A stretch of 35,674 nt of DNA. Origin: Actinomycetota bacterium. GTDB taxonomy: Bacteria; Actinomycetota; Actinomycetes; Nanopelagicales; Nanopelagicaceae. The stretch is taken from positions 1 to 35,674 of the forward strand of contig SYAM01000038.1 in assembly GCA_005787645.1 (NCBI GenBank), given 5' to 3'. The notes beneath the pieces were generated by a model. It did no database searches and was not told the DNA's origin. It worked only from the letters and a program-made list of their open reading frames with translations. This document shows, in pieces, positions 10,810 to 35,674 of this stretch. Numbering within the stretch: the first letter of the stretch is position 1; every line of letters begins with the position of its first letter. Made by a program: the position numbers and the translations under genes.

Positions 10810-11553
10810 TTAAAAAGAAAATCCATGCGGTAGTTCTAGGCGATTAGCTGTTAACAATCTTTGGTTGCGGAGAATATTTACAGTCAAATCGTCAGCGACA
10901 ATCTCGCCTTGATTAAGAATTAGCGAACGTTGACAGAGCTCAAAAGCATACGGAAGATCATGTGTGACCATAAGTATCGTTACATCAAGACTAAGTAGAA
11001 TCTCTGATAGTTCCCGCCGAGAGGCTGGATCAAGGTTTGACGATGGCTCATCAAGGATCAAGATCTCAGGTTCCATTGCCAAGACAGTTGCAACAGCAAC
11101 CCGTCGTCGTTGCCCAAACGACAAATGATGTGGGGCCCGATCTCTAAGTTCTACCATTCCGACCATTTCAAGCGCCCTAGTGCTACGTCGTTCGATCTCT
11201 TCCCTGGCTAGACCCATATTGGTCGGTCCGAATGCGACATCTTCGTAAACAGTGGGCATGAAGAGTTGATCATCAGGATCCTGAAAGACGATTCCCACCC
11301 TCTCGCGGACCTTTTTGGTGACCTCTTTGTTCTTTTCATCGAGAGCAAATTCGCCAATATCGATTGAGCCAGATGTGGGAGAGAGAATCCCATTGAGATG
11401 CATCACCAAAGTGGTTTTACCGGCGCCATTTGGCCCCAGCAATGCAACTCGCTCACCTTTTGTGATGGTGAGGTCAACGCCATTGAGCGCTTTGTTCCCA
11501 TCGGGGTATGCATAATGAAGTGCGCTTACATGCACACTAGGTTTTGCCATCAT
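10810..11553 (-). CDS. cbiO: Metal ECF transporter ATP-binding protein (CbiO)
   Basis: LLGPNGAGKTTLVMHLNG, GIVFQDPDDQLFMPTVYEDVAFGP, HLSFGQRRRVAVATVLAMEPEILILDEPSSNLDP. Confidence 0.9.
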   Translation of the reverse strand: MMAKPSVHVSALHYAYPDGNKALNGVDLTITKGERVALLGPNGAGKTTLVMHLNGILSPTSGSIDIGEFALDEKNKEVTKKVRERVGIVFQDPDDQLFMPTVYEDVAFGPTNMGLAREEIERRSTRALEMVGMVELRDRAPHHLSFGQRRRVAVATVLAMEPEILILDEPSSNLDPASRRELSEILLSLDVTILMVTHDLPYAFELCQRSLILNQGEIVADDLTVNILRNQRLLTANRLELPHGFSF

Positions 11554-12344
11554 GAGAAGAGCACTCTACCGAGTAAAAATGAGAGTGCTGCCAAAAAAGG
11601 GAAAGTCAGACCCGCTCGCCAATGTTTAGGTCGAACATTTTCAACTGATAGCGAAGAGAGAGTTCCGGCATACCCACGGGCAAGCATCGCTAAATGGACT
11701 CGCTCACCACGCTCGTAGGAACGGATAAAGAGAGCACCAAGGGTTGAAGTAAATATCGGCCAACTACGGATACCTTGCGCCTGAAAGCCCCGTGATTCTC
11801 GGGCGACTTTCATACGAGCCATTTGGTCATTGATGACATTCAGATAGCGAATCATGAAAGCGGCTATCTGCACAAAAAGTGATGGGGTCTTTATTCGAAC
11901 AAATCCTGCAAGTAGCGAATGTGTAGTTGTTGAACCGGCGAGAATCATCGAACAGAAGACGCCGAGGGTTGCTTTAGTTATGAGATTCAGACCAGCAATA
12001 CTTCCTTCGCGAGAGAGACTTACTGGGCCAATATCGAACATCTCTCCACCTGCGGTAAAAGGCATAAGAAGGGCAAAGATAATGAAGGGAAATTCTATAG
12101 TTGCTCGTTTAGCAAGAGTGAGCATAGGTAACTTCGAGAGCGCTAGTGCAACAGAGATGATGAGAAAGTAGCCCACAAAAGATTGCCACTGTTGAATAGG
12201 GGTGAGAACGGCGATGATGATAAAGACGAAGAATGCAACAAGCTTGATGTGTCCGGGAAGTTCGTGAACGAATGAGTGACGATGGATGTAGAGACGTTCA
12301 CCGACGCTATGGCCATGTGTATGGGCATGGGATTCGGTATGCAT
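11550..12344 (-). CDS. cbiQ: Metal ECF transporter transmembrane protein (CbiQ) with His-rich N-terminus
   Basis: ELPGHIKLVAFFVFIIIAVLTP, RYLNVINDQMARMKVARESRGFQ motif; ORF extends to 12371, but the ATG at 12344 (MHTESHAHTHGHS) avoids overlap with the preceding gene. Confidence 0.87.
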   Translation of the reverse strand: MHTESHAHTHGHSVGERLYIHRHSFVHELPGHIKLVAFFVFIIIAVLTPIQQWQSFVGYFLIISVALALSKLPMLTLAKRATIEFPFIIFALLMPFTAGGEMFDIGPVSLSREGSIAGLNLITKATLGVFCSMILAGSTTTHSLLAGFVRIKTPSLFVQIAAFMIRYLNVINDQMARMKVARESRGFQAQGIRSWPIFTSTLGALFIRSYERGERVHLAMLARGYAGTLSSLSVENVRPKHWRAGLTFPFLAALSFLLGRVLFS

Positions 12345-12351
12345 TTGCTTC

Positions 12352-12645
12352 TTAATTTTTCTTTTTACCAATCAGACGGATAAATAAATACATCACTAGA
12401 CCCGTGGCAATCACGCCAATCACGCCAGCAATTCCTACAGAGAGTCTCTCATTCTCGATTCCCGATACTCCGTAGTCAGCCAAAGCCGAGCCAGCAACCG
12501 CCGATTCTTGGGCCGAATCGATAAATCCAAGATCGATTGCAACCTTCTCTAAACCGTCTGGGGAGGAGGAGGCATAGAACGAGAAAAAGCCAGCAATCAC
12601 CAATGCGATTGCAATTCCAACAAGGTAGAAGCGCCTATTCTTCAT
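12352..12645 (-). CDS. PDGLE-domain / CbiN-like component
   Basis: FFSFYASSSPDGLEKVAIDLGF; two TM segments; located between CbiM and CbiQ with a 4-bp overlap to CbiM. Confidence 0.87.
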   Translation of the reverse strand: MKNRRFYLVGIAIALVIAGFFSFYASSSPDGLEKVAIDLGFIDSAQESAVAGSALADYGVSGIENERLSVGIAGVIGVIATGLVMYLFIRLIGKKKN

Positions 12646-13295
12646 TTTCGAACCTTGAGCATTCCAAAAACTAGATCTGGTCGAGTCTTGAGTATTGCTC
12701 CGACGGTGAGCGTAGTAATGATTGCCTCACCGATTCCAATCAGCAGATGGGTTGTGAACATAGCTGCGAAAACAGTCGATGCTGCGAAGGTTCCCTGCCC
12801 ACCGATTGCATATTGAATACTGAAAAAGGTTGCTGCAAGCGGCACAGAGATAAATGCACCAACTGCAGAACCAATAAGTACCGAAGTGCGCGTGTATCGA
12901 AAAATTTTCCGCATTAACACGAAGGCGCCGTAGCCTCCCCACACTCCAACCACGGACATGTTGAAAACATTTAGACCAAGTGCGGTCAAGCCTCCATCAG
13001 CGAAGAGCAGCGCTTGGATCGCCAACACAACGGTCAGGGCGAGCGAGGCCGCATGTGGTCCCACCAGCACCGCGGCCAGAGCGCCCCCAAGTAGATGGCC
13101 AGAGGTACCAGCGGCTACCGGAAAATTAATCATTTGGCCGGCGAAGATAAAGACCGCTACCAACCCAACCAGGGGGGCGGCTCTCTCATCGAGCTTCTCC
13201 CGGGCGGCCCGCACCGAATAGCCCAAGCCAGTGGCGGCCAGGGCGGCTGAGGCTGTGGCTGTCGGGATATTGATGAAGCCATCAGGGATATGCAT
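12642..13295 (-). CDS. cbiM: Metal ECF transporter substrate-specific component (CbiM/NikM-like)
   Basis: MHIPDGFINIPTATASAALAATGLGYSVR (N-terminal MHIPDG is the metal-coordinating motif of CbiM/NikM), FPVAAGTSGHLLGGALAAVLVGP. Confidence 0.93.
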   Translation of the reverse strand: MHIPDGFINIPTATASAALAATGLGYSVRAAREKLDERAAPLVGLVAVFIFAGQMINFPVAAGTSGHLLGGALAAVLVGPHAASLALTVVLAIQALLFADGGLTALGLNVFNMSVVGVWGGYGAFVLMRKIFRYTRTSVLIGSAVGAFISVPLAATFFSIQYAIGGQGTFAASTVFAAMFTTHLLIGIGEAIITTLTVGAILKTRPDLVFGMLKVRK

Positions 13296-13307
13296 AAGAG
13301 AAGATTA

Positions 13308-13324
13308 TTGCAAATCATTTGCAA
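13308..13324 (-). promoter_or_regulatory. Nur-type (nickel-responsive FUR family) operator upstream of cbiM
   Basis: TTGCAAATCATTTGCAA = TTGCAA-N5-TTGCAA with perfect 8-bp arms; abuts a TAATCT -10-like hexamer 6 nt before the cbiM ATG. Confidence 0.7.
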
Positions 13325-13404
13325 CTACAACCTGAAATGCGGCGCACAGGCTATATCAGGTGCGGAAAATTGTTCCACCTGCTCTGGCAGAAAATCTCTA
13401 ACCG

Positions 13405-15392: not shown

Positions 15393-15682
15393 CCGGTTGG
15401 CTCCGTAGATACTCGATCGCCAATCACATTGTGGGTATGCGCATGAGCTCCACGAACTATTGGAAGATAAGCATGGCCCATCCGTTCGCCATATTTGATG
15501 ATGGGGTCGCCTTTTGCAATATCTACTAGTGCAATCTTGTGGCCACGAGGGATTATGGTCTTCACCTCTAATATGGATGCGATATCACTCTGTTCGATTC
15601 GCATTCCAACAGGAAGTTCTTGCAAGGCGATTGCGATGTTGTCTCTAGCGTCTAAGACAATCAAGGAATTCACTCGTGCCAT
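15389..15682 (-). CDS. UxaA family SAF-domain small subunit
   Basis: 97 aa: LIVLDARDNIAIALQELPVGM...IPRGHKIALVDIAKGDPIIKYGERMG...GAHAHTHNV; 4-bp overlap with the next subunit. Confidence 0.85.
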   Translation of the reverse strand: MARVNSLIVLDARDNIAIALQELPVGMRIEQSDIASILEVKTIIPRGHKIALVDIAKGDPIIKYGERMGHAYLPIVRGAHAHTHNVIGDRVSTEPTG

Positions 15683-30800: not shown

Positions 30801-31907
30801 ATGGAATCGCCCCTCCTTGAGCTCCATCGCTCCCTCGGGGCTAAGTTGGGTGACTTTGCAGGGTGGCAGATGCCTCTGGAGTATCCCGCTCCCATCGGGG
30901 GTGGAACTTTGGCCGAACATGAAGCGGTCCGTGAGACGGTGGCCATATTTGATGTTTCACATTTGGGAAAGATATCTATTTCCGGAACAGGTGCGAAGGC
31001 TTGGGTGAATGAGATTTTCACCAATAATTTAGAGAAAATTACCTCCGGGCAAGCGCAATACTCATTGCTCTGCGCACCGAATGGCGGAGTAATAGATGAC
31101 GTCATTATCTACTGCAAAGGTGATGACGAAATTCTCATCGTGCCAAATGCAGCAAATTCAGCAGAGGTCTTTCACATCTTAAATGAACAGCGCTCACTCT
31201 CTGATGCACATCTCAAACTGGCAAATCTCCATGAAGATTTCGCAGTCATTGCTGTGCAAGGGCCCCTTTCATCTCGTGCGTTGGCTCACGTCGGTATAGA
31301 TGTTTCGCTCGAATACATGTCCTTTACGGAAATCTCATTCGAAGGGTCCACATTTACGCTCTGTCGCACTGGTTATTCGGGTGAACATGGTTATGAGTTA
31401 ATTCCACCGCGTGAGATTGCAGTGTCATTGTGGAATACCTTGACTAGAGCAATTCTGGCGCTAGATGGAAAGATTGCAGGGCTTGGAGCGCGCGATACCT
31501 TACGTACGGAAATGGGTTATCCACTCCACGGCCACGAACTCTCTCTGGATATCTCTCCATTGGATGCCAATCTCTCCTGGGCGGTGGGCTGGCAAAAGAA
31601 ATCCTTCAGTGGCCACGAAGCCCTCCGCGAACAACAGGCAAAAGGGATCGAGCGAATACTCCGTGGTTTACTACTGACCGAAAAAGGAATTCCACGTGCG
31701 GGAATGTTGGTTCGCAATTCAGTTGGAGCGGTGGTTGGTGAAGTGACAAGTGGAACCTTTTCTCCAACGCTTAAGCAGGGGATAGCGCTAGCCTTCATTG
31801 AAGCCGGCATTGAAGTTGGCGAGCAGTTGCTCGTCGACGTTAGAGGACGGGCTTTAGGAGCGGTCGTGGTCAAACCGCCATTTGTTCCCTCGCATGTTCG
31901 CGATTAA
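30801..31907 (+). CDS. gcvT: Glycine cleavage system aminomethyltransferase (T protein)
   Basis: FAGWQMPLEYPAPIGGGTLAEHEAVRETVAIFDVSHLGKI, CRTGYSGEHGYELIPP, GLGARDTLRTEMGYPLHGHEL. Confidence 0.94.
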   Translation: MESPLLELHRSLGAKLGDFAGWQMPLEYPAPIGGGTLAEHEAVRETVAIFDVSHLGKISISGTGAKAWVNEIFTNNLEKITSGQAQYSLLCAPNGGVIDDVIIYCKGDDEILIVPNAANSAEVFHILNEQRSLSDAHLKLANLHEDFAVIAVQGPLSSRALAHVGIDVSLEYMSFTEISFEGSTFTLCRTGYSGEHGYELIPPREIAVSLWNTLTRAILALDGKIAGLGARDTLRTEMGYPLHGHELSLDISPLDANLSWAVGWQKKSFSGHEALREQQAKGIERILRGLLLTEKGIPRAGMLVRNSVGAVVGEVTSGTFSPTLKQGIALAFIEAGIEVGEQLLVDVRGRALGAVVVKPPFVPSHVRD

Positions 31908-32649
31908 TAAGAACGTTCCCTCGACGAATCGCTCGACGTAACGAATTCAGAATCGGACGACCGAGCAAGAGAATTAATATTGTGTTGAAAATTGCACGAG
32001 GAATATCCCAAGCAAGAGCAGTTGCAAAATGGAAGAGGACGAAACGTTGGAGATTGTCTAGTACCTCCGCACCAGGAAGGTATGCAATAGAGGTTGCAGG
32101 GGAGACTATCCAAGGCCATAGTTGTAGATCCATCATTGCACCGAAGAGAAGAGCGGTCACCGCCCCGTAACAAGCAAGAAGCGGTAATTCAATTGATTCC
32201 TTCACCTTGGGGAGCGCTCCAGCGCCCCAGCCAATCCATGCTGCGCACATCATTTGAAATGCAAGCCACGGTCCGACGCCTCCTGTGAGTAAAGCAGAGG
32301 CGAGCATTGTGGTGAGTCCGAGTATGAAACCAAATCTCTTCCCTAACGCCTTGCCTCCGATAATGATGAGAAACCAAATCGGCTCCAGGCCTACAGCGCC
32401 AGCGCCAATTGCTCGAAGGGCAGCGCCAGTTGCGCTCAGCACGCCAAGGAATGCCAGAGTCTTTACATCTAGTTGCCCCAGAGTGATTTCGACAATAAGA
32501 ATAATTGCCAGTAATGGCATTAATCCGAGAAATAACCATCGTGCGGCGCTGTCATTCTCTGCGGAAATAAAAAGTGGCCAGGTAAATGCGAGTAGACCGA
32601 TTAGTGAAGCAAGAAGTATCACTAGGGAAGAGAGCCGTTCTTTCTTCAT
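31870..32649 (-). CDS. ECF transporter S component (CbrT-like, probable cobalamin type)
   Basis: Multi-TM protein: LSATGAALRAIGAGAVGLEPIWFLIIIGGKALGKRFGFILGLTTMLASALLTGGVGPWLAFQMMCAAWIGWGAG; operon with the EcfA/EcfT genes. Confidence 0.82.
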   Translation of the reverse strand: MKKERLSSLVILLASLIGLLAFTWPLFISAENDSAARWLFLGLMPLLAIILIVEITLGQLDVKTLAFLGVLSATGAALRAIGAGAVGLEPIWFLIIIGGKALGKRFGFILGLTTMLASALLTGGVGPWLAFQMMCAAWIGWGAGALPKVKESIELPLLACYGAVTALLFGAMMDLQLWPWIVSPATSIAYLPGAEVLDNLQRFVLFHFATALAWDIPRAIFNTILILLLGRPILNSLRRAIRRGNVLINREHAREQMAV

Positions 32650-34265
32650 GGAGCGCTCCTGCCAATCGACTTCAATACTTCATTGACAGTCAGCCACTGG
32701 GCAGGTGCGAGCACCTTCGCAACTTGTGGTGCAAATGCCGGCGACGAGGTGAGTATTTCTCCAGCAGGACCATCTGCGACGATTTCTCCATCAGCGAGCA
32801 CGATTACCCGAGTAGCAATCTCTGCAATCAACTCCACATCATGAGAGGCGACTATTACCGCTGACTTAAGGTCTCTACACTCGCGAATCGCCGCAATAAG
32901 TCGATCTTTCGCTCGATAGTCGAGCCCTCTAGTCGGTTCATCCAATATCAAAAGAGGAGGATTATTTGCTAGAACAATTGCCAAGACTAGACAAAGTCGC
33001 TCACCTTCAGAGAGATCTCGAGGATGTACATCTGCATCGATATCAGGCAGCAGTCGAGCAAGTAATCGAGAGGTAGTGCCTGACGGTACGCCATTGTCAT
33101 TATCACTATGGCGCAATTCCTCTTCCACGCTCTGGGCATAGAGTAAGTCGCTAGCTTCTTGGGGAATAAATCCAATTTTCGTGATTAATTCCTTACCTTT
33201 GAGCATTTGGGGGTCGACACCACAGACTCTCACCAATCCCCGCTCGAGTTTTCGTAGACCTGCAATACTGGAAAGTAAAGTGGATTTACCGGCGCCATTG
33301 CGCCCCATAACCGCCACTATCTCGCCAGGAGAGATTGCGACTGAAATGTTTTTTAGTGCGACCTTGGCCCCATAGTTAACCGCAACATTCTCCAATTCCA
33401 GAATTGGTTCGGCAGTAATAGTGGGCTGATGTCTCTGCAATGGTGAGAGCCAGGCGGCTAGATCCCCGAGTTGCCTGCGAGCGTCGCGAACCGTGAGTGG
33501 AATTTCACTTTCGGACATCTCGCTAGCCAGACCACGGAAGAGATGGACAATCGGTGGCGCCAACGTGGAATCTTTTAATATTTCCTGTGGAAAACCCACG
33601 GCAACTTCTCGTTCGTTTCGAACATAAATTACCCGGTCAACAAATTGAAGCACGCGTTCCAATTTATGTTCGGCAATCACAACGGTGATACCGAGGTCAT
33701 GTACCAATCGAGAGAGAGTTGCCAAGACTTCCTCGGCAGCAATTGGGTCTAGCGCACTTGTTGGCTCGTCGAGTAGGAGAATTTTGGGATTCATAGTCAG
33801 GACCGAGGCAATTGCAACTCTCTGCGCCTCGCCACCGCTCAACGAACTCAGTTTTCGCTGTCGCAACGGCGTCAATGCGAGAAGATCGAGCATATCTTCC
33901 ACTCGCTTGCGCATAACCTCAGGCGCTACACCTAAGGACTCCATTCCAAATACCAATTCTTCTTCCACGGTATCCGTGACAAAACCCAAAGCGGGGTTTT
34001 GACCAACAATCGCAATGAGATCCACTAGATCTCGTGGTTTATGGAGCGCAGTATCTTTGCCATCAACCATAATCGTGCCGGAGAAGATGCCACCGGTGTG
34101 ATGAGGAACCAGCCCATTCATAAGTTTCAATAAGGTTGATTTACCTGCTCCGGTATCACCCATAACCAGAACAAATTCGCCCTCGGGTACTTCGAAGGAA
34201 AGGTCCTCAAAAATTGTTCGTTGAACATAGGGATACACGAGCGTGACTTTATTGAATCTAATCAC
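32646..34265 (-). CDS. ECF transporter ATP-binding protein, two ABC domains fused in one polypeptide
   Basis: Walker A GDTGAGKSTLLKLMNG and GRNGAGKSTLLSSIAG; signatures LSGGEAQRVAIA and LSEGERLCLVLA; Walker B LLLDEPTSALDP and LILDEPTRGLD. Confidence 0.93.
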   Translation of the reverse strand: MIRFNKVTLVYPYVQRTIFEDLSFEVPEGEFVLVMGDTGAGKSTLLKLMNGLVPHHTGGIFSGTIMVDGKDTALHKPRDLVDLIAIVGQNPALGFVTDTVEEELVFGMESLGVAPEVMRKRVEDMLDLLALTPLRQRKLSSLSGGEAQRVAIASVLTMNPKILLLDEPTSALDPIAAEEVLATLSRLVHDLGITVVIAEHKLERVLQFVDRVIYVRNEREVAVGFPQEILKDSTLAPPIVHLFRGLASEMSESEIPLTVRDARRQLGDLAAWLSPLQRHQPTITAEPILELENVAVNYGAKVALKNISVAISPGEIVAVMGRNGAGKSTLLSSIAGLRKLERGLVRVCGVDPQMLKGKELITKIGFIPQEASDLLYAQSVEEELRHSDNDNGVPSGTTSRLLARLLPDIDADVHPRDLSEGERLCLVLAIVLANNPPLLILDEPTRGLDYRAKDRLIAAIRECRDLKSAVIVASHDVELIAEIATRVIVLADGEIVADGPAGEILTSSPAFAPQVAKVLAPAQWLTVNEVLKSIGRSAP

Positions 34266-35260
34266 GTCAGGACTCGTTCTCGACTTGTAACAAATATTGG
34301 AGCAAGGGCAACTAGAAAAAGGAGTACTGCCAATAGCAGAGTAAAAGAAAGGCCAGCGAAAGCAATCGATATAACCCCCATCAGCAAGACAAAGGATTCA
34401 CGGAGCCCCCATTTTTGTGGACGGTATTTAGTTCTGGAGTTATTTCGATTTCCTAAGTACAAAGAGAACATAATCAGTGACAGAGCAAGTACAAGAGAAA
34501 TCTGGTAGCTATTGCCGATTACCAGAGAGATGATTGAGTATAGGAGTGCGAAGAGTCCTGCAAACATGGCCAAGGTAGGTAATAACGGATTTCCATTCTT
34601 TGGTTTATGCCCATAGCCACGAGCCTCCATCGATTCGGCAAGTATCAATGCGCGCTCCAGCGCCTCTTCAAAGAGTGGAACCAGGGTTTTTTTAAATCCG
34701 AATTTTTCCACATCTCCTCGTAGTGCGCGCGCTTGGCGGATCCTTTTTACACTCATCACAAAGTGGGGAATGAGCGTGGTGGCGATGATTAAAGCGACCC
34801 CCGCCTCATGAAGTACCCCGGGCAGCGCTCTTAAAGTCTGTTTTGGATTGGCTAGTGAGCTGGCTGCGGCGATTGCGACAACTAGTGCAAAGATTGTCAG
34901 CGATTCAAGAAAAACAAATTGGAGCCGTTCTTGCGTGACATCTCCACCAAGGAAAATACCAGCCAACCATTGAGGGAGCTTGATTCGGGGGATTGTAAAG
35001 AGAACCTTCCCTTGTTCTGGGATGCTAAAAAGAATAGCAATGAACATTCTTAAAAGCAGAGCGATACAAGCGATTTTGATTCCGATGCTGAGTGCGTTGG
35101 CCCAAGGATCGTCGGAGCGACGTGAGAACGTGACAATTACGGCAGCAAGGATAATTCCTCCCAGTAGCCAAAAATTCCCTGCTCGACTGGTGGCGATTGC
35201 AAGCGAAATGCCCCAACTCCACCAAGCAAGCGGATGTAACGTCCTCACATCGACCATCAA
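34262..35260 (-). CDS. ECF transporter T component
   Basis: Multi-TM; SVKRIRQARALRGD and ALILAESMEARGYG coupling motifs; 4-bp overlap with the ATPase gene. Confidence 0.9.
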   Translation of the reverse strand: MMVDVRTLHPLAWWSWGISLAIATSRAGNFWLLGGIILAAVIVTFSRRSDDPWANALSIGIKIACIALLLRMFIAILFSIPEQGKVLFTIPRIKLPQWLAGIFLGGDVTQERLQFVFLESLTIFALVVAIAAASSLANPKQTLRALPGVLHEAGVALIIATTLIPHFVMSVKRIRQARALRGDVEKFGFKKTLVPLFEEALERALILAESMEARGYGHKPKNGNPLLPTLAMFAGLFALLYSIISLVIGNSYQISLVLALSLIMFSLYLGNRNNSRTKYRPQKWGLRESFVLLMGVISIAFAGLSFTLLLAVLLFLVALAPIFVTSRERVLT

Positions 35261-35278
35261 ACTTCCATCATCCTTCAG

Positions 35279-35674
35279 CTATTTACGCATTGACTCAGGT
35301 ACTGCGATTGGATCTGCTCCGCAATCCTTGGAGGGAAAACCTGCAAGACCGCAGATGAATCCACCCTCACCAGCGCGTACCTCTGTTACAGCGTTAAGTA
35401 CATCGATACCTGAGGCATCTATAGGTACTGATGCGCACCCTTGTAGCGCAGTTGGAGCGATATCACCCTCGGGATGAATTGCAGTGTTACCAAATTCGAT
35501 GACATACCCAACTCGTTTTGCATCATCTTTTACCGCAGTAGAACCACAGAGTGTTTGGAAATCTGGCGCGAGAGTAGGAGGTTCTGCATCAACAACGCCT
35601 TCGGCTGAAAGTGTGTAATTCCATCCCTCGACTGTTCCATCTTGGGGGTCTGTGGTTGCTGGACCCTCCATGGC
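35279..35674 (-). CDS. SCO2322-like secreted/exported protein, truncated at window end
   Basis: EGPATTDPQDGTVEGWNYTLSAEG...DFQTLCGSTAVKDDAKRVGYVIEFG...ICGLAGFPSKDCGAD; four cysteines; immediately upstream of the ECF T gene. N-terminus is outside the window. Confidence 0.68.
   Translation of the reverse strand, partial: AMEGPATTDPQDGTVEGWNYTLSAEGVVDAEPPTLAPDFQTLCGSTAVKDDAKRVGYVIEFGNTAIHPEGDIAPTALQGCASVPIDASGIDVLNAVTEVRAGEGGFICGLAGFPSKDCGADPIAVPESMRK

Follow-up and report, generated by a model that had tools for sequence, protein, structure and literature searches.

The four genes at positions 10810-13295 very likely encode an ECF-type nickel importer, NikM-PDGLE-NikQ-NikO, which would be transcribed from one promoter and repressed by the nickel-loaded regulator Nur. 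The window, a stretch of 35,674 nucleotides, is the entire contig C5 of a 1.22 Mb genome in 124 contigs, estimated to be 88.85% complete. Among named organisms, this genome is nearest to acI Nanopelagicaceae, one of which is Actinobacteria bacterium IMCC26077 (acI strain C1), whose genome is complete. From the sequence we infer Nur binding, nickel as the corepressor, the transcription start and Ni2+ as the substrate. When nickel is sufficient, dimeric Ni-Nur would bind a 17-bp palindrome that separates the -35 and -10 elements and exclude RNA polymerase, switching uptake off. When nickel falls, apo-Nur would leave the operator, a leaderless mRNA would then begin at, or adjacent to, the cbiM ATG, and the ECF complex would import Ni2+, chiefly for Ni-superoxide dismutase. 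The importer genes are the following.

12642..13295, minus strand: cbiM/nikM, ECF substrate-binding subunit of 217 aa with His2 and His67 present (Pfam CbiM, 3.2e-58).
12352..12645, minus strand: PDGLE small membrane protein, N-type accessory subunit (Pfam PDGLE, 5.8e-18).
11550..12344, minus strand: cbiQ/nikQ, ECF transmembrane subunit, ATG at 12344 (TIGR02454, 4.6e-39, above cut-off), with TTG at 12371 as a further open start.
10810..11553, minus strand: cbiO/nikO, ECF ATPase (TIGR01166, 1.1e-65, above cut-off).

The M, N-type, Q and O components of a NikMNQO nickel ECF transporter are thus present together, and N-type, Q and O matches stand beside cbiM in 75 of 80 related loci. A genomic link to nickel is provided by the Nur box, and by a Nur protein and Ni-SOD whose genes are not adjacent to the importer. 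The N terminus of CbiQ is rich in histidine (MHTESHAHTHGH), with HHHGHDVGERLYLHRHS conserved in relatives, and is possibly a metal-handling tail.

The initial annotation had pointed to a perfect TTGCAA-N5-TTGCAA box that abuts a TAATCT hexamer 6 nt before the cbiM ATG and would cover the promoter. The sequence bears out the box, the hexamer, the 6-nt gap and the abutment, and the elements are arranged as follows.

13325..13330, minus strand: putative -35 element TTGTAG, 17 bp from the -10 element and weak relative to consensus; the aligned WTGCAG/TTGTAG is conserved in relatives.
13308..13324, no strand assigned: Nur-type operator TTGCAA-N5-TTGCAA with perfectly palindromic half-sites.
13302..13307, minus strand: putative -10 element TAATCT, 6 nt before the cbiM ATG; a leaderless start is predicted.

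In a pattern scan, 13308-13324 reads TTGCAAATCATTTGCAA with 0 mismatches. It is the sole perfect copy in the genome of 1,223,136 bases, for which base composition predicts about 0.07 perfect copies. Allowing one mismatch gives 6 sites in the genome, against 2 for a reversed control pattern. The box matches the consensus tTGCaa-N5-ttGCAA of Nur targets given in PMC3919588, and a Nur orthologue is encoded in the genome. Elsewhere in the window, a Nur-like site with one mismatch (TTGCAAGGCGATTGCGA, 15620-15636) lies within an ORF that has no Pfam match and is probably due to chance.

On the minus strand, TTGTAG (13330-13325) is followed by the box (13324-13308), TAATCT (13307-13302), TCTCTT and the cbiM ATG (13295), so that the box is the exact 17-bp spacer of the -35/-10 pair. 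Because the distance from the -10 element to the ATG leaves no room for a leader, the promoter looks leaderless; neither this nor the spacer position had been part of the initial annotation. A scan with the plain sigma-70 consensus reported no promoter at the box, both hexamers being weak in the window's genome. The promoter reading is based on the position and the TAnnnT motif conserved across loci rather than on hexamer strength.

This conservation was assessed in the 150-bp upstream regions of 80 cbiM relatives and the window (81 loci), which were scanned for TGCRAA-N3-TTYGCA with at most one mismatch. The box was found upstream of 69 of the 81 cbiM genes, 51 of them with a perfect copy, in loci that come from related species and are therefore non-independent samples. 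After dinucleotide shuffling of the same regions, 0.25% carried a box within one mismatch and none a perfect one. The end of the core lies exactly 13 nt before the cbiM ATG in 40 loci, and 39 of these 40 have TAnnnT at the identical place (TAACAT, TAAAAT, TAACCT, TATAAT and others; TATAAT is that of L028). The flanking DNA has diverged between loci, whereas the box has not. In other loci, among them that of Ca. Planktophila versatilis (L032), the box lies at different distances that are still near the start codon. Most of the 12 loci without the box, many of which are from Nocardioides, keep a degenerate dyad resembling TTGCAA-N5-ATGCAA. One relative (G001) has no box and also lacks the initial ~16 codons of cbiM, so that its gene looks decayed. 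A lack of conservation at orthologous cbiM genes, which would have told against the original proposal, was not observed.

Two FUR-family proteins are encoded in the window's genome, on contigs C72 and C68. The former, the Nur homologue that the initial annotation had proposed to search for, has S. coelicolor Nur (ScNur) as its best PDB match (3eyy, 1.5e-44; the next match is at 2.7e-16), and the latter matches Zur and adjoins a ZIP transporter gene. In a tree of 48 proteins, the C72 protein groups with ScNur and the C68 protein with ScZur (support 100/99). The nickel-site ligands of ScNur are presumably His 70, 72 and 126, and those of its second site (M-site) His 33, 86, 88 and 90. The first three are present in the C72 protein and in all aligned Nur proteins of the family, which keep His at ScNur positions 33, 70, 72, 88, 90 and 126; Zur proteins lack His 33, 70 and 126, and in all but one case His 72. 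Of the M-site positions, 33, 88 and 90 are kept in the C72 protein, whereas position 86 is Leu there and is variable across actinobacterial Nur proteins. The ligand counts of ScNur, without residue numbers, agree with a review (PMC7055735). The gene ygfZ follows nur on C72, and it is also next to nur in S. coelicolor (PMC4531530).

The presence of a Zur beside a ZIP gene in this genome, and the difference of only about one base pair per half-site between Nur and Zur boxes, raise the alternative that the box is read by Zur, the importer being zinc-regulated or itself a zinc importer. This is extremely unlikely, since Zur loci in the family carry a distinct box, TGAMAA-N3-TTKTCA. One such box (TGAAAATGGTTGTCA) lies 20 bp upstream of the ZIP gene in the window's own genome, and the window itself has none within one mismatch. 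Further evidence comes from NicO (PF03824), an unrelated single-protein permease whose genes stand behind the same Nur box as cbiM. Ten NicO genomes (G005, G011, G013, G016, G021, G025, G027, G029, G032 and G036) encode a single FUR protein, which is Nur-type by length and profile span, six of them being confirmed as Nur in the tree. In nine of these ten, a Nur-type box can be read upstream of NicO; in G025 the region is cut at a contig end. Repression by Nur is thus the preferred reading of the box.

As for the metal, the nickel enzyme anticipated in the initial annotation is present: the window's genome encodes Ni-SOD with the hook HCDLPCGVY, as do 35 of 37 family genomes in all. The other two (G016 and G031) have a boxed importer, yet Ni-SOD was not found in them, possibly owing to genome incompleteness. 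No Fe/Mn-SOD was found in the 37 genomes. Urease and [NiFe]-hydrogenase, which had also been suggested as nickel enzymes to look for, were not found in the window's genome and are rejected as nickel sinks there. Among the 37 genomes, urease is convincing in one (G014) and [NiFe]-hydrogenase was found in none, the weak matches being judged paralogues. It is therefore very probable that the importer brings in nickel for Ni superoxide dismutase, given that a Nur site is conserved at cbiM and that in relatives the same switch stands before a nickel importer of an unrelated kind.

Automatic annotation would make this set a cobalt importer for vitamin B12 synthesis, with a box that merely resembles a Nur site. 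The NCBIfam and Pfam names are indeed cobalt-based, and the published genome table of acI-C1 (PMC5301498) places the module under cobalt. This reading is nevertheless very unlikely. CbiC, the sole marker of B12 synthesis used, is absent from 37 of 37 family genomes, and PMC5301498 reports that acI genomes are unable to make cobalamin and possess an ECF module led by a riboswitch. The conservation of the box is also far above chance, and the box travels with a nickel permease family. The combination that would have spoken for cobalt, namely B12 genes with neither a FUR regulator nor a nickel enzyme, is thus not what this genome contains.

A riboswitch-led module of this kind is apparently present here. 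An Rfam scan found the window free of riboswitches, and a cobalamin riboswitch (RF00174) lies at C58:469-541 (contig C58, L284). The ORF cut at the end of the window (35279-35671) has its missing beginning encoded at the start of C58 (100% over 46 aa), and C58 therefore appears to continue C5. The module in question is the following.

31870..35260, minus strand: second ECF module with S, double ATPase and T subunits, then a lipoprotein-like ORF (35279..35671) cut by the contig end.

In a complete relative (G004), the riboswitch and this module are found in intact order on one contig. Since a cobalamin riboswitch stands in front of it, the module at 31870-35671 is probably a cobalamin importer, and the need for cobalt is probably met as B12 through it. 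The four-gene set at 10810-13295 therefore does not qualify as a cobalt CbiMNQO, CbiC being absent and the riboswitch of the genome preceding another ECF module. The cobalt and Zur readings were both tested and rejected as best explanations.

Some members of the Nik/CbiMNQO and NiCoT families carry both nickel and cobalt. A mixed importer under Nur is accordingly conceivable, with cobalt in a second role such as the salvage of incomplete corrinoids, and both-metal carriers are included in the two families in PMC2667541; by analogy, the importer described here may also transport some Co2+. We consider such a dual role unlikely, because Nur has no known effector other than nickel (PMC7055735) and the demand for cobalt is apparently met by the separate riboswitch-led module.

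The case for nickel is extended by the distribution of the two importers. Among the 37 family genomes, CbiM is found in 13 and NicO in 23, both are intact in none, and one (G022) alone has neither; these counts include one CbiM (G012) and one NicO (G006) that were judged from gene starts at contig ends. The exclusion is significant by Fisher's test (4e-9; 2e-7 when the two cut cases are left out), in a comparison that is not corrected for phylogeny. In ten genomes (G005, G009, G013, G015, G017, G021, G024, G027, G028 and G032), the box lies 12-13 nt before the NicO start in a cassette like that of cbiM. In G023, a NicO gene with its own box (L211:2934) has an in-frame stop and has lost its remainder, and a second box (L211:3325), ~0.4 kb beyond the first, precedes an intact cbiM (locus L211:2934-3339). 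Because this decayed, boxed NicO adjoins a boxed cbiM, and the congeneric G009 and G034 still use NicO, the locus is direct sequence evidence of a replacement of importers in which the kind of control was retained, and G023 would be a snapshot of it. Taken with Nur, Ni-SOD and the conserved box, the exchange supports the initial proposal that this cobalt-annotated CbiM-PDGLE-CbiQ-CbiO set is nickel-regulated.

Two further observations concern the NicO and CbiM loci. In some NicO genomes (L131, L123), NicO and a divergently oriented gene for a CopC-domain protein flank a Nur box, which may control both. The apparently complete genome that lacks both importers (G022; L212, L213) has Ni-SOD, Nur and two boxed DUF4395 copies, and could be explained by a gap in the assembly or by a different nickel importer.

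A second type of Nur site is found at DUF4395 genes. Outside the window's genus, 9 of 10 DUF4395 loci have a box within one mismatch in the 260 bp upstream, G012 being the miss, compared with 0.55% of shuffled upstream regions. Boxed copies are found at L209:2935 and at L212, L213, L218-L222, L225 and L227. DUF4395 is usually the first gene of an operon that contains nur, sometimes with rhodanese and DUF1416 genes, and G022 has an extra boxed copy on a contig other than that of nur. In the window's genus, a degenerate site (CGCRAATNACTTGCA) is conserved at DUF4395 in all 4 genomes examined. A boxed DUF4395 at the head of the nur operon suggests that nur is autoregulated and that DUF4395, which just two papers of the open-licence literature mention, has a nickel-related role. 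No good Nur box was found at any of 20 sodN loci, which leaves direct control of sodN by Nur unsupported. As there is neither an Fe-SOD gene that Nur could repress nor a good box at sodN, the circuit in Nanopelagicaceae looks reduced to the control of supply. As a tentative synthesis, plausible although somewhat short of probable, the cassette WTGCAG - 17-bp Nur box - TAACMT - 6 nt - start codon may be a conserved nickel switch behind which the importer changes, CbiMNQO taking the place of NicO, with G023 showing the change half completed. DUF4395, usually within the nur operon, would be under the control of this Nur as well, so that nur would regulate itself and DUF4395 would be a newly recognised component linked to nickel.

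The acI Nanopelagicaceae are among the most abundant lake bacteria. Since Ni-SOD is present in 35 of the 37 genomes and Fe/Mn-SOD in none, their superoxide defence probably hinges on nickel supply, and an importer listed under cobalt would be the gate. Expression of boxed importers makes nickel limitation of lake bacteria testable. The Nur box could also serve as a simple rule for assigning the metal to actinobacterial Cbi/NikMNQO systems, many of which have no assigned metal (13 organisms in PMC2667541).

Streptomyces already provides examples of Nur boxes and of nickel importers under Nur control, and it also has a Nur-linked ECF cluster, nikMNOPQ, although no report of this cluster was found in the open-licence literature. 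In the Nur regulon of S. coelicolor, the box overlaps the promoter (PMC3919588, citing Ahn 2006 and An 2009). The system described here shares with it the orthologous regulator beside ygfZ, a box of the same consensus over the promoter, the control of nickel uptake and Ni-SOD in the genome. In contrast, the Streptomyces targets that have been reviewed are the unrelated importer nikABCDE and sodF (PMC7055735), whereas here the target is an ECF importer, the box is the exact promoter spacer and a leaderless start is predicted. Fe/Mn-SOD is absent from the Nanopelagicaceae genomes examined, and the sodF/sodN sRNA switch therefore cannot operate in its Streptomyces form. The acI nickel circuit was not found described in the open-licence literature; its promoter geometry, with the operator as the spacer of a leaderless promoter, the swapping of importers and the DUF4395-nur Nur site seem to be unreported there.

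With regard to the transporter, the best PDB match of the window's CbiM is to NikM2 (4m58, 1.1e-25; see also 4m5b). The NikMNQO systems share the M, Q and O core with a small N-type subunit, the M1-His2 N terminus and His67, and differ in that the similarity is moderate, the N subunit of the window is PDGLE-type and its substrate is predicted. Cobalt CbiMNQO has the same ECF family and gene order, but the match to Rhodobacter capsulatus CbiM (5x3x) is weaker (4.4e-15), and the PDGLE protein matches the NCBIfam CbiN models weakly, so that no classical CbiN lies above the curated cut-offs. The window's operon also has no riboswitch and its genome no B12-synthesis marker. The NicO/NiCoT permeases of Nanopelagicaceae share the Nur box, with the leaderless-type cassette in ten genomes, and differ in occurring only where intact CbiM is absent. 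Finally, the ECF module of acI strain C1 is given as cobalt/nickel or cobalt in the relevant passages of PMC5301498, which make no mention of Nur or superoxide dismutase; the relative G004 carries the orthologous cbiM (82% identity) behind the same box in the same geometry.
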